Source: an uncultured Bryobacteraceae bacterium
GTDB taxonomy: Bacteria; Acidobacteriota; Terriglobia; Bryobacterales; Bryobacteraceae
Length of the DNA stretch: 64,000 nt
Assembly (NCBI GenBank): GCA_938003835.1
Contig: CALKXJ010000022.1
Location: forward strand, 62,001 to 126,000
Direction: 5' to 3'
In this document: positions 5,744 to 60,047 of the stretch, in pieces
Layout: every line of letters starts with the position of its first letter
How positions within the stretch are numbered: the first letter of the stretch is position 1
Program-made: the position numbers and the translations under genes
Notes under the pieces: generated by a model
What the model was told of the DNA's origin: nothing
Database searches by the model: none
What the model saw: the letters and a program-made list of their open reading frames with translations, nothing else

Positions 5744-6896
5744 AAGGCCGGCCCTCGAGCGCCGCCTCCCGGAGCGCGACGCCGTAACCGGGACCGCAGG
5801 GCACACTCAAACATCCGTCTTCGAGCCGCAGATCCTCGCCGAGCAGCTCCCGCCACAGCTCGCGATCGGAATCGGTGCCCACGGTCTCCAGGATCAAAAA
5901 GTTGGGGATGCTGGCGGCAAAGTGCAGATTCATCACCGTCGCCAGCGGCCCGTTCGGGTTGTGCGGCGCCAGGCTGACATAGTGCGCCTCGGCTAGGGCG
6001 GCGATCTTCTTGAGCGCGGTGAAGCCGCCGCAGTTGACCAGGTCGCACTGAAGTACGTCCACCGCCTGCTTTTCGAGGAACTCGCGGACGCCGTGGATCG
6101 TCGCCCACCGCTCGCCGGCCGCGATCGGCACCGGGGACTCGCGCCGCAGGATCGCTAGAACCTCTGCGTTTTCCGGCGGCACGGGCTCCTCAAGAAACAT
6201 CAGGTTCAGCCTCTCGACCCGGCGCGCGAGCCGTAAGGCGGCCTTGAGATTGAGCCGCCCGTGACAGTCGACCGCGATGCCGACCTTGGCTCCGGCGGCC
6301 TGGCGCGCGGCCTCCAAAAACTCGGCGATCCGGTCGATGACGTCCGGCTCCAGATACTCGGTCTCTTTCAAAGTGCGGGGCAGTGAGCCGTCGGTTCCCG
6401 AGTAGCTGGCCGGGCCGCCGTCGGAGACGCCATAGAAGAGCGGCAGGGTGGTCTTGATCGCGCGGTAACCCTGCCGGACGCAGTCGACGACCCGGGAGGC
6501 AAACTCCTCGGGCGAGCTTCCAGCGCGGCAGTGGCAGTAGACCGGCACCCGCTGGCGCGTCGGGCCACCGTGAAGCTTGTAGACCGGGACCTGGCAGGCC
6601 CGCGCCAGGATGTCCCAGAGCGCGCAGTCGATGGCGCTCAAGGCGGTGGCGTGGACGGCGCCGCCTACCCAGAAGGAGTCCCGGTAGATTTTCTCCCAGA
6701 TGTCCTCGATCTCCGTCGGGTCGCGGCCGATGAGCGTGCTCCCCAGACGCCGGATGGCCTGCTCGATGGCGAGCGTCCAGCGTTTCATGACGGTTTCGGC
6801 GATGCCGGCGAGGCCGGTGTCGGTGTCGATGCGGACGAGGACGGCGTTGCGGAAGCCGAGATTGACGACCCGGGTGGTGACTTGGGTGATTCGCAT
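5718..6896 (-). CDS. mandelate racemase/muconate lactonizing enzyme (sugar-acid dehydratase type)
   Basis: A 392-aa enolase-superfamily enzyme. Metal ligands appear as D210 (VDCHGR), E236/E237 (FLEEP) and E262 (AAGERW), with a catalytic histidine H312 in APHNP. The CHGR, GER and APH pattern resembles D-galactonate dehydratase (DgoD), also close to 380 aa, so dehydration of an aldonic or uronic acid to a 2-keto-3-deoxy acid is likely. The ATG at 6896 has GGGAAG 8 bases upstream. It is the first gene of the operon running on to the MFS, aldolase and oxidoreductase genes. The exact substrate is not determinable. Confidence 0.87.
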   Translation of the reverse strand: MRITQVTTRVVNLGFRNAVLVRIDTDTGLAGIAETVMKRWTLAIEQAIRRLGSTLIGRDPTEIEDIWEKIYRDSFWVGGAVHATALSAIDCALWDILARACQVPVYKLHGGPTRQRVPVYCHCRAGSSPEEFASRVVDCVRQGYRAIKTTLPLFYGVSDGGPASYSGTDGSLPRTLKETEYLEPDVIDRIAEFLEAARQAAGAKVGIAVDCHGRLNLKAALRLARRVERLNLMFLEEPVPPENAEVLAILRRESPVPIAAGERWATIHGVREFLEKQAVDVLQCDLVNCGGFTALKKIAALAEAHYVSLAPHNPNGPLATVMNLHFAASIPNFLILETVGTDSDRELWRELLGEDLRLEDGCLSVPCGPGYGVALREAALEGRPYEPRPGWR

Positions 6897-7017
6897 GGCT
6901 GGCGCTTCCCGGCGCCAACAGGTCAGCATAGCTCCGGCCGCCGAGCATGTCCAATGGCGGGGCGAGATGGGGAGCATCTCGGGGTTCGATGGTCACCGGG
7001 CCGAGCGGAATTCCATA

Positions 7018-7023
7018 AGTATA
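7018..7023 (-). promoter_or_regulatory. possible -10 element for the sugar-acid operon
   Basis: Reading the minus strand, TATACT sits in an AT-rich stretch about 120 bases upstream of the dehydratase start. The -35 region is poorly defined. This is the best candidate promoter for the operon but rests on one hexamer. Confidence 0.3.
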
Positions 7024-7056
7024 TGAAAGAAAGGGAAAAATTTTTTCACAGAGGAC

Positions 7057-7085
7057 TTGACAATAATATGCTAAAGTTTTATGAT
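7057..7085 (+). promoter_or_regulatory. sigma70-type promoter of the small heat-shock gene
   Basis: TTGACA at 7057-7062 and TATGAT at 7080-7085 are separated by exactly 17 bases, nearly perfect consensus in a GC-rich genome. The first is within an AT-rich island. A strong Shine-Dalgarno (AAAAGGAGGT, 7111-7120) and the ATG at 7131 follow. No CIRCE or HrcA element was seen. Confidence 0.8.
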
Positions 7086-7130
7086 AGAGGTGTAGATAGA
7101 GTTCAGCGAGAAAAGGAGGTACCCAACACC

Positions 7131-7568
7131 ATGTCGCTCATCCGTTACAACCCCTTCCGCGAAATGGAGGAGTTCGCTCGCTCCTGGAGCCTGTTGCCTG
7201 ACCTGTTCAGCCGGGTCTTCGAGGAGCCCATCGCCGTGCGCCCCTGGACCCCGAGCGTCGACATCGAAGAGCGCGACAACGAGATCGTCGTCAAGGCCGA
7301 CGTTCCCGGCGTCAGCGAGAAGGATCTCGACGTGCGCCTGGAGAACAACACCCTGACGATCAAGGGCGAGCGCAAGTTCGAGAAGGAGGACAAGCAGAAG
7401 GGCTATCACCGCATCGAGCGCGCCTACGGCTCCTTCGTGCGCTCCTTCGCCTTGCCCGCCGCCGTCGATGCCGACAAGGTCGAGGCGCACTACAAGGATG
7501 GCGTGCTCACCGTCACCCTGCCCAAGACGGAGGCCGCCAAGAGCCGCAAGGTGAAGATCTCGAGCTAA
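7131..7568 (+). CDS. hsp20: Hsp20/alpha-crystallin small heat-shock protein
   Basis: A 145-aa cytoplasmic chaperone that holds unfolding proteins. The alpha-crystallin domain spans about residues 40-140, from PSVDIEERDNEIVVKADVPG to the conserved GVLTVTLPK, followed by the short tail KVKISS. A classical start region (MSLIRYNPF) follows a consensus SD 10 bases upstream. The gene has its own strong promoter (7057-7085) and terminator (7582-7616), so it is monocistronic. The membrane protease gene htpX lies next, a common proteostasis grouping. Confidence 0.95.
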   Translation: MSLIRYNPFREMEEFARSWSLLPDLFSRVFEEPIAVRPWTPSVDIEERDNEIVVKADVPGVSEKDLDVRLENNTLTIKGERKFEKEDKQKGYHRIERAYGSFVRSFALPAAVDADKVEAHYKDGVLTVTLPKTEAAKSRKVKISS

Positions 7569-7656: not shown

Positions 7657-8502
7657 ATGAACACCATCAAGACCGTTCTGCTTCTGGGACTCTTGAGCGG
7701 CCTTCTGCTGGCCGGCGGACAAGCTCTGGGAGGGCAAGACGGCCTGGTGCTCGGCTTGATCCTGGCCGTGGCCATGAACGCCGTGAGCTATTTCTTCTCC
7801 GACAAGCTGGCGCTGAAGATCTACCACGCCCAACCCGTCACGCCGAACGAGAACCGCGAAGTCTGGCGGCGCATCGGCCCCATGACGGAGAATCTGTGCC
7901 GGCGCATGGACCTCCCCATGCCCAAGTTGTGGCTGATTCCGGACGCATCGCCGAACGCCTTCGCCACCGGGCGCAACCCGAAAAACGGCTCTGTGGCCGT
8001 CACCGCGGGATTGCTGGAGATCCTCAACGACCAGGAGCTCGAGGGCGTCATCGCGCACGAGCTCGGCCATATCCGCAATCGGGATATTCTAGTGAGCTCG
8101 ATCGCCGCCACCATCGCCACGGCGATCACCTTTGTGGCGCGGATGGCGATCTTCTTTCCGGGCGGCCGCGACGAGGAGGGCCGCAGCCCTTGGGCCGGTC
8201 TGCTGATGCTGTTCCTGGCGCCGATCGCCGCCCTGCTCATCCAGATGGCGATCTCGCGCACGCGCGAGTTCGGCGCCGACGCCGCCGCGGCCAAGTATAC
8301 GGGCACGCCCTACGGCCTGATCTCGGCTCTGCGCAAGCTCGAGGCCTGGTCCAAGCGCGTTCCCATGAACGCCATGCCCGCGCACGAACACATGTTCATC
8401 GTCAAGCCGTTCAGCGGCGAGGGTCTGATGAAGCTGTTCTCGACGCACCCGCCCACGGCCGAGCGGATTGCGCGGCTCGAGCAGCTCCGCTTCGCCCTCT
8501 GA
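7657..8502 (+). CDS. htpX: membrane zinc metalloprotease HtpX (M48B)
   Basis: A 281-aa inner-membrane protease that degrades misfolded membrane proteins. Two N-terminal membrane segments (residues 6-50) are followed by the zinc site HELGH (134-138), two further segments (about 150-195) and the third ligand E204 in REFGAD. The C-terminus carries the family signature STHPPTAERI. Length matches the family (about 285-295 aa). A possible promoter (TTGAAC, 16 bases, TAATTA at 7617-7644) lies directly downstream of the hsp20 terminator, so it appears transcribed independently. Confidence 0.95.
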   Translation: MNTIKTVLLLGLLSGLLLAGGQALGGQDGLVLGLILAVAMNAVSYFFSDKLALKIYHAQPVTPNENREVWRRIGPMTENLCRRMDLPMPKLWLIPDASPNAFATGRNPKNGSVAVTAGLLEILNDQELEGVIAHELGHIRNRDILVSSIAATIATAITFVARMAIFFPGGRDEEGRSPWAGLLMLFLAPIAALLIQMAISRTREFGADAAAAKYTGTPYGLISALRKLEAWSKRVPMNAMPAHEHMFIVKPFSGEGLMKLFSTHPPTAERIARLEQLRFAL

Positions 8503-58351: not shown

Positions 58352-58681
58352 GTGAAGAATATTTTTGTAGGGAATCTGGATTACGGCGCCACCGAGGACG
58401 CCATCCGAGACCTGTTCGAGCAGTACGGCGCCGTCGAGCGCGTCAGCCTGATTCGCGATCGTGACACCGGCGCGCCGCGGGGATTCGCCTTCGTCGAGAT
58501 GTCCGATGCGGCCGAGGCGGATCGTGCCATCGCCGGCCTGAACGGAACCATCCTGGGGAACCGGGCGATCAACGTCAACGAGGCGCGTCCCCGCGCCGAC
58601 AGCGGCCGCCCTTCCGGCGGGGGTGGTTTCCGCCGACAGGGAGGCGGCCCTCCGCGCCGGCGGCGCGAGCCGCGCTGGTAA
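58352..58681 (+). CDS. RRM-domain RNA-binding protein
   Basis: A 109-aa single RNA-recognition motif. RNP2 is IFVGNL (residues 4-9), RNP1 is RGFAFVEM (43-50), and the tail is glycine/arginine-rich (GGGGFRRQGGGPPRRRR). This matches bacterial Rbp-type proteins, often cold-induced. The start is a GTG at 58352 with AAGGAG 8 bases upstream. Likely an RNA chaperone. It sits alone downstream of gltD. Confidence 0.93.
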   Translation: MKNIFVGNLDYGATEDAIRDLFEQYGAVERVSLIRDRDTGAPRGFAFVEMSDAAEADRAIAGLNGTILGNRAINVNEARPRADSGRPSGGGGFRRQGGGPPRRRREPRW

Positions 58682-58759: not shown

Positions 58760-59503
58760 ATGCGCAGCCTCGGGCTACCGGAAGTTCTCATCATTTTGGG
58801 ACTACTGGTGCTGCTGTTCGGGGGCGCGCGCCTGCCCGCCTTCTTCGCGGGCTTGGGACGCCGGCTCGGCGCCTGGGTGAACCAGTGGCGCTGGGTCTGG
58901 CGTTCGATGGCGGGAACCGAAGAGGAAGAGATCCGCGCCGAGGAGGCGGTCGGCAAGGAGCAAGCGTCCCGCTTCCTGGAATACATGCCGCCCGTAACCG
59001 ACTCGGAGCTCATCCGCCAGGTGCGCTCGGTCGGAGAAAAACTGGCGCGCACCGCCCCGGCCAGCCGGCGCACGTTTCGTTTTCACGTCGTCGAGGCGCC
59101 CGTCGCCAACGCCTTCGCTCTGCCCGGCGGATACGTCTTCGTCACGCGCCGCCTGGCCGAGATGTGCGAAGACTCCTCCGAGACCGCCTTTCTCCTCGCT
59201 CACGAGATGGCGCACGTCATTTCACGCCATTTCGTCGAAAACAGAGTGATGGAGACGCTGCTCGGGGCCGTCAAAGCCGGGCAGCTCCTGGCGGAGCTTG
59301 TCGGCAAGGGCTACTCGCGGGAACAGGAGCTCGAGGCGGACCGGAAAGCCATCGAGCTGATGCGCGAGGCTGGATTCGCCGAGGAGGGCGCGCGCCGGAT
59401 CCTGGCCAAGCTTCACCGCCTCTCAGGTGAGACGCCCGAGCTGCTCCAGTACCTCTCCACGCACCCCCGCTTCGAAGAGCGCCTCGAGACGTTACGCGCT
59501 TGA
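58760..59503 (+). CDS. TatA-like membrane segment fused to M48 metalloprotease
   Basis: A 247-aa protein. Residues 5-42 (LPEVLIILGLLVLLFGGARL, then PAFFAGLGRRLGAWV) have the look of a TatA/TatB N-terminus: a short membrane helix, an F-G hinge and an amphipathic helix. A short acidic linker leads to a compact M48 peptidase with zinc ligands H148, H152 (HEMAH) and E192 (LEADRK); E149 is catalytic. The end STHPRFEERLETL is like M48C proteases. It may be a membrane-bound quality-control protease. The TatA resemblance is seen directly; a link to Tat export is speculative. Confidence 0.8.
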   Translation: MRSLGLPEVLIILGLLVLLFGGARLPAFFAGLGRRLGAWVNQWRWVWRSMAGTEEEEIRAEEAVGKEQASRFLEYMPPVTDSELIRQVRSVGEKLARTAPASRRTFRFHVVEAPVANAFALPGGYVFVTRRLAEMCEDSSETAFLLAHEMAHVISRHFVENRVMETLLGAVKAGQLLAELVGKGYSREQELEADRKAIELMREAGFAEEGARRILAKLHRLSGETPELLQYLSTHPRFEERLETLRA

Positions 59504-59516
59504 GTAGCGGCGCGGC

Positions 59517-60047
59517 TTATCGCTTCACGCTCCGGACCAGAGCTTCAAACTGCGGCTGCGCTTGGGCGACGGTCCTGGCCGGCCCGGTGAACTTGAAGAA
59601 AACGTTTCCGCCCGGCGCTTCGACGATCGCCCCGAGCAGCCTGAAGCCGGGTTTCCTCACCGCGCCGCGCGGCGCCATGGGGCCGGCCGAGGCCAGGTAG
59701 GTACCGGAGACGTCGATGCGCGTCACGGGAAGGCCGTTGACAGTCTCCTTGCCGATCTTGGCCGCCTTGTCCGCCGGCTTGCCGCCTTCGAGTTCGAACT
59801 GCGCGATCCAGCGCTTGATGTTGGAGTCCACGTCGCCACCCTGACCGGCGCCGAAGAAGAAGACCGCGCACTCGCCGTCTTCGGCATCCCCGGCTGCCCT
59901 CGGTACCCGGTAGGTGGCGGCGCGCATCGGCCGCTCCGGTTGCGCCTGCCAGCCGGCGGGCGGCGCCCAGCGAATCCCTCCCGCCGATTGCGCCCAGAGC
60001 CCAAACACCGCTCCCAGGCATCCCAGTCCCAACAGTCGTCGCGTCAT
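59517..60047 (-). CDS. secreted hypothetical protein
   Basis: A 176-aa protein with a signal peptide (LLGLGCLGAVFGLWAQSAGG). The mature part is a single alpha/beta domain with RWAPPAGWQAQP, FFFGAGQGGDVDSNIKRWIA, VNGLPVTRIDVSGTYL and a C-terminal FALVRSVK-type end, a pattern I associate with uncharacterised secreted proteins of soil bacteria. It is convergent with the TatA-M48 gene, 13 bases apart. No enzyme motif is seen. Confidence 0.75.
   Translation of the reverse strand: MTRRLLGLGCLGAVFGLWAQSAGGIRWAPPAGWQAQPERPMRAATYRVPRAAGDAEDGECAVFFFGAGQGGDVDSNIKRWIAQFELEGGKPADKAAKIGKETVNGLPVTRIDVSGTYLASAGPMAPRGAVRKPGFRLLGAIVEAPGGNVFFKFTGPARTVAQAQPQFEALVRSVKR

Follow-up and report, generated by a model that had tools for sequence, protein, structure and literature searches.

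The N-terminus of the membrane-embedded Tat subunit TatA has been joined to a complete M48 metalloprotease in a 247-residue protein encoded near one end of the window (the whole 64,000-nucleotide stretch of DNA analysed here, from an uncultured Bryobacteraceae bacterium). The fusion is real, and it is probably old. The M48 protease is of a known kind, while the TatA-M48 architecture is new as far as the open-access literature shows, no TatA-M48 protein having been found in the part of that literature that was searched. On sequence grounds, the TatA-derived anchor probably keeps the protease tethered to the cytoplasmic surface of the membrane. The parts of the gene, numbered within the window, are as follows.

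58760..59503 (+): TatA-M48 fusion gene, ATG start, 247 aa, with orthologues found
58760..58870 (+): TatA-derived segment, residues 1-37 (PF02416 over residues 4-37; identity to the genome's own TatA; profile and shuffles)
58775..58819 (+): predicted transmembrane (TM) helix, residues 6-20 (AlphaFold2 model; scripted 15-residue hydrophobic run)
58820..58828 (+): hinge, residues 21-23, the break between the helices (AlphaFold2; G21 in 20 of 24 fusions)
58829..58912 (+): amphipathic Arg/Trp-rich helix, residues 24-51 (AlphaFold2; alignment with relatives)
58928..59500 (+): M48 peptidase domain, residues 57-247, BepA-like fold (PF01435; BepA 6ait)
59201..59215 (+): HEMAH zinc-binding/catalytic motif, residues 148-152 (H148, E149 and H152 invariant in 51 rows)
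59327..59341 (+): ExxxD motif, residues 190-194, with E190 as the likely third zinc ligand (E190 and D194 invariant in 51 rows)
59462..59464 (+): H235 of the THP motif (invariant in 51 rows; aligned with the THP motif of BepA)

Composition of the fusion protein

The protease portion matches PF01435 over residues 86-246 (E 4.7e-30) and combines HExxH, the downstream ExxxD ligand and the M48 fold; the complete M48 protease described in an initial annotation of this DNA is thus confirmed, as a domain spanning residues 57-247 with invariant motifs. Positions invariant in a 51-row M48 alignment include H148, E149, H152, E190, D194, H235 and P236. Since both E190 and D194 of the ExxxD motif are invariant, E190 is most likely the third zinc ligand, in agreement with the same annotation, which had named the HEMAH motif together with a third ligand. 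The closest solved sequence is 3c37 (E 4.4e-23), followed by BepA (YfgC), an M48 protease of the Escherichia coli periplasm; the model of the M48 domain aligns with BepA 6ait over 185 residues (Z 21.9, rmsd 2.4). BepA shares the M48 fold, HExxH, ExxxD and THP motifs with the fusion protein, which differs from it in consisting of 247 residues with M48 and TatA domains alone, and in being predicted to face the cytoplasm, whereas BepA is periplasmic. H235 is likely, by analogy, the counterpart of the ‘His switch’ of BepA, His-246, which is described as holding that enzyme inactive by binding zinc (PMC8423444). The fusion scores well below the curated cut-offs of the HtpX (at most 21.2 bits vs. 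245-422) and BepA (82.3 vs. 570 bits) equivalog models, and no Pfam domain besides M48 and TatA reaches the E-value floor of note in the 247-aa protein.

In an AlphaFold2 model based on 51 sequences (mean pLDDT 86.9; 71-82 in the first five ten-residue blocks), a helix over residues 6-20, a break at 21-23 and a second helix over 24-51 precede the M48 domain. The N-terminus is accordingly predicted to adopt the helix-hinge-helix shape of TatA, as the initial annotation, which had proposed such a model as a check, anticipated. Residues 1-37 contain the features typical of the TatA/TatE family (PF02416, TIGR01411): an N-tail with E8, a short TM helix, the F20-G21 hinge and the start of an amphipathic helix with G33. 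The rest of that helix (about residues 38-51) does not match TatA, resembling instead the helix of M48 relatives that have no TM segment. The TatA pattern placed earlier at residues 5-42 is therefore present, with a corrected extent: homology covers residues 1 to approximately 37.

TatA ancestry of the N-terminus

Residues 1-33 align from the start methionine with the genome's own TatA, encoded on another contig (C31), with 22 of 33 positions identical (67%; BLASTP E 1e-12, the value for a single comparison). The full-length protein scores 18.7 bits against PF02416, below the cut-off of 21; trimmed to residues 1-60, it reaches 24.3 bits (E 1.8e-5). Nine fusion N-termini were scanned by themselves: the printed scores of seven are at or above the cut-off, with one exactly at it (24.3 for the window's protein, then 26.9, 31, 24.2, 21, 25.1 and 30.9), and those of the other two fall below it (13.4 and 15.3); a search of the Pfam library returned no TatA match for one piece of a TM-less relative and one outgroup piece. 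The TatA/E subfamily model TIGR01411 gives 19.9 bits for the protein and 23.1 bits for its first 60 residues, vs. a cut-off of 53.9.

A TatA profile was built from 31 stand-alone TatA/TatB sequences of the window's and related genomes, with fusions excluded. The window's N-terminus scores 39.8 bits on this profile; the best of 4800 shuffled sequences, of which 4776 scored, reaches 16.8 (200 shuffles for each of 24 fusion N-termini, with composition kept separately for tail, helix, hinge region and remainder). Of the 24 acidobacterial fusions, 22 exceed all of their own 200 shuffles and 14 exceed the overall shuffle maximum, while L006 (2/200 shuffles as high) and L047 (1/200) are inseparable from theirs. 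The TatA identification is thus significant, and the segment, whose conservation the initial annotation had set as a test, is recognisable in most homologues. Scores do not exceed 0.3 bits in 13 TM-less relatives, or 7.7 bits in outgroup M48 pieces (13 of 15 scored). Most of the outgroup pieces start inside the protein, and as only some include a TM helix, this control is a weak one.

A PF02416 search of 36 whole genomes returned strong matches (49.7-75.9 bits) and 11 others under 49 bits (18.7-31.0 bits). Every one of these weak matches is the fusion gene, nine of them above the curated cut-off; none occurs in the 12 fusion-free genomes, and the search missed 13 of the 24 fusion genes. The TatA chains 9e07, 2l16 and 7b7o, found by sequence, are absent from the 50 listed rows of either fold search, as those rows are filled by the M48 domain. 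All seven early-branching fusions resemble FGG-type TatA (19 sequences) more closely than they do the FGP type (12 sequences), with margins of 1-10 residues in 32; we infer that the FGP type is TatB, although in family f34 this type may include TatA. By these sequence comparisons, the fused N-terminus descends from TatA. A recent copy of the host's own tatA is not supported as the source: DNA identity to that gene is 58/99 bases, and, over 5 genomes, any greater closeness of the fusion to the host's own TatA than to other TatAs stays within chance (an equal or higher value in 2622 of 20000 permutations).

Distribution, relatives and genomic context

Genomes were searched with a six-sequence profile, scoring the best 6-11 candidates per genome (8 in the class sample); full-length matches lie far above other M48 genes. 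The fusion is present in 17 of 237 genomes of the window's family (E <= 6.5e-75 and reaching the N-terminus), in the same 17 among 257 genomes in an order-wide search (E <= 1e-47), and in 4 of 299 genomes of a class sample, all from the window's family. Nine of 396 genomes in a phylum sample gave matches: the genome of the window itself, seven that belong to a single genus in another family (f34), and one with a TM-less protein (G465). The search across Acidobacteriota suggested earlier thus places this architecture in 24 genomes of two families (17 and 7). Its patchy occurrence (17/237 family genomes) implies that its role is dispensable at the family level. Two other M48 genes matching up to the N-terminus (G234:C20 and G026:C14) have, by eye, ordinary-looking signal or anchor starts lacking the F-G hinge.

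The best 80 GTDB matches include M48 proteins of Planctomycetota, Verrucomicrobiota and Calditrichota with 31-40% identity. Those forming a sister clade, mostly from Planctomycetota and joined by the protein of the acidobacterium G465, resemble the fusions in carrying a similar Arg/Trp-rich helix before the protease; they start shortly before that helix, and differ from the fusions in that neither a TatA helix nor any other TM helix or signal peptide is seen, by eye, in the 13 proteins inspected (L068-L074, L076, L077, L079-L081 and L155). They are possibly a cytoplasmic group of Planctomycetota and others. A tree calculated from only the M48 columns unites fusions and TM-less proteins in one clade (support 99/96), within which the TM-less ones form a subclade (98/97); L098 and L145 are long branches. 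Four fusions with strong TatA signatures, that of the window included, fall outside the remaining members of the clade, a placement of moderate support (94/73). It puts the TM-less proteins among the fusions and so suggests a single old fusion and a later loss. Monophyly of the fusions is not rejected by the AU test (p 0.47), and a single event, whether gain or loss, suffices to account for both forms.

At least one stand-alone TatA/TatB-family match above the cut-off is found in 36/36 genomes, all 24 fusion genomes among them, and at least two in 35/36; G016 (62% complete) has a single match, of the FGP type. The loss of stand-alone tatA that the initial annotation predicted is therefore not seen, and replacement of TatA by the fusion is not supported. 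In these draft assemblies, the TatA-family match nearest to the fusion gene lies on another contig in 23 of 24 genomes and ∼261 kb away in G178. TatC matches were found in seven of eight fusion genomes tested, the exception being 62% complete. In the window's genome, tatA and tatC are on contigs other than that of the fusion, and an FGP-type gene lies ∼0.7 kb from tatC on the tatC contig.

HtpX matches (E <= 1e-30) occur in 19 of 24 fusion genomes (weakly in G345) and in 11 of 12 others, with only 6 of the 36 genomes passing the model's curated cut-off; replacement of HtpX by the fusion is not a general rule. The window itself encodes a separate HtpX-type M48 protease (7657-8502 (+), 339.6 bits; G000:C22:69657-70490). 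The end of the ORF just upstream of it (6531-7568) reads, by eye, as an Hsp20-type small heat-shock protein.

Neighbours of the fusion gene include gltB and gltD homologues (named from their Pfam domains), an RRM protein and an MFS transporter. The gene for the small RRM RNA-binding protein (58352-58681 (+); PF00076, E 1.9e-24) follows the gltB/gltD homologues and immediately precedes the fusion, and a comparable frame is present near one further fusion gene, that of G102. A 176-aa protein encoded convergently with the fusion gene (59517-60047 (-)) has no Pfam match at E <= 0.01. Across 25 neighbourhoods (∼4-16 kb, some on short contigs), two of the listed families are common beyond close kin, one in 5/25, which we take to be a short-chain dehydrogenase, and one in 3/25; several other ‘families’ are shadow frames of the fusion gene. 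As the neighbourhoods, where seen, are unconserved beyond close kin, context gives no function.

Topology and possible roles

In 23 of 24 fusions, the flank following the TM helix carries more positive charge than the flank preceding it, and in the remaining one the two are equal. Because positively charged flanks stay on the cytoplasmic side (the positive-inside rule), the protease is predicted to reside in the cytoplasm, like TatA's own C-terminus. The TM-less sister proteins, as judged by eye, fit with a cytoplasmic protease, and the inner-leaflet location suggested in the initial annotation thus gains support from both observations. Against it stands BepA, the nearest of the solved homologues whose role has been studied; its periplasmic location would make a periplasmic site the usual one.

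On balance, the fusion is probably a cytoplasm-facing, membrane-tethered quality-control metalloprotease with a TatA-derived anchor, usually found beside HtpX. HtpX is an inner-membrane M48 protease with several TM helices, a cytoplasmic active site and a role in quality control; the fusion protein resembles it as a predicted membrane-bound M48 enzyme, and differs from it in having one TatA-type helix. With an N-out, C-in topology as in TatA, the tethered protease would present a latent active site at the inner leaflet, where its most likely substrates would be membrane and membrane-associated proteins that are damaged, orphaned or dislocated, and the conserved histidine of the THP motif may keep the enzyme in check, as in BepA.

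The anchor has kept part of the TatA signature (residues numbered by the genome's own TatA). G33 is present in 24/24 fusions, P26 in 21/24, and F20 and G21 in 20/24 each, all four being found in 31/31 stand-alone sequences. In contrast, E8 is found in 8/24 fusions vs. 31/31 stand-alone sequences, and the FK motif in 0/24, while F39 and K/R40 occur in 31/31. The N-tails are approximate, because several fusion start codons were picked by eye; the starts of L008, L148 and L153 are uncertain (GTG, TTG or none well placed), some with extra residues before the TatA part. In a 2026 review, the substitution F39A is described as making E. coli TatA assemblies irregular and inactive, and a hydrophobic stretch of only 12 residues as important for membrane weakening by TatA (PMC13186574). 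With F20, G21 and G33 mostly kept and FK gone, the fused segment thus has the in-membrane parts without the part said to order TatA assemblies.

A protease directed at the Tat system, whose TatA-derived helix joins TatA clusters or docks on TatC and which would clear away signal peptides, excess Tat subunits, or substrates that have stalled or misfolded, is unlikely. It would account for an anchor nearest FGG-type TatA, for the retention of R2, G5 and E8 in 7/7 early-branching fusions (F20 and G21 in 6/7 each), and for the TatC matches in most fusion genomes tested; E8 of TatB touches TatC in a core structure published in 2026 (PMC13323110). It is difficult to reconcile with the absence of FK from all fusions, given the reported inactivity of F39A assemblies, with the scarcity of E8, with a sister clade lacking any such helix, and with tatA and tatC lying on contigs other than that of the fusion. 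We regard as quite doubtful its more specific form, a built-in Tat-pathway protease that gains access to clusters of TatA or to the TatA/TatB site of TatC and, working on the cytoplasmic side, breaks down Tat subunits or Tat substrates that have stalled, misfolded or leaked. Loss of FK would in that case bar the segment from a transport-competent ring, with the translocon still reached. Proteases acting on TatA exist in another form, the rhomboid AarA of Providencia being reported to cut TatA (PMC12067869). The earlier proposal that the protein polices the Tat translocon gains no direct support from the distribution of FK (absent in 24/24), of E8 (8/24) and of TatA-family matches (on another contig in 23/24).

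Rather unlikely, too, is a mere anchor, a short membrane anchor captured from tatA for a protease whose substrates lie outside membrane quality control and are perhaps soluble proteins near the membrane. E8 was not found in 16/24 fusions, the 17 rows of the derived clade score only 5.6-24.8 bits on the TatA profile, and the TM-less sister clade keeps the protease, all as such a reading would have it. In nine close pairs, none including an early-branching fusion, dN/dS is 0.10-0.63 for the TM helix and hinge (25 codons each) and 0.10-0.42 for the M48 domain; these estimates indicate that the TM and hinge codons are constrained, if less so than the protease in 7/9 pairs. Conservation of the hinge region (G33, P26, F20 and G21) goes, however, beyond what a plain anchor would seem to need.

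Convergence, in which a generic TM anchor and amphipathic helix merely resemble TatA, is highly improbable and in our judgement refuted for the window's protein: the TatA segment is short, and the derived fusions L006 and L047 score no better than their shuffles, but the identity that starts at residue 1, the scores on curated Pfam models, 0/4800 shuffles near the window's score and the low scores of outgroup M48 pieces (a weak control, with a TM helix in only some) oppose it.

Known as a subunit of the export machinery, TatA has here lent its membrane half to an enzyme as an anchor, which two acidobacterial families have retained. The fusion family provides natural experiments, comprising members with a full TatA signature, members with a worn-down one, and a sister clade without any. 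If the anchor still meets the translocon, the way in which cells clear stalled Tat substrates would become directly testable; if it does not, the family shows which features of TatA are useful merely for short membrane anchoring.
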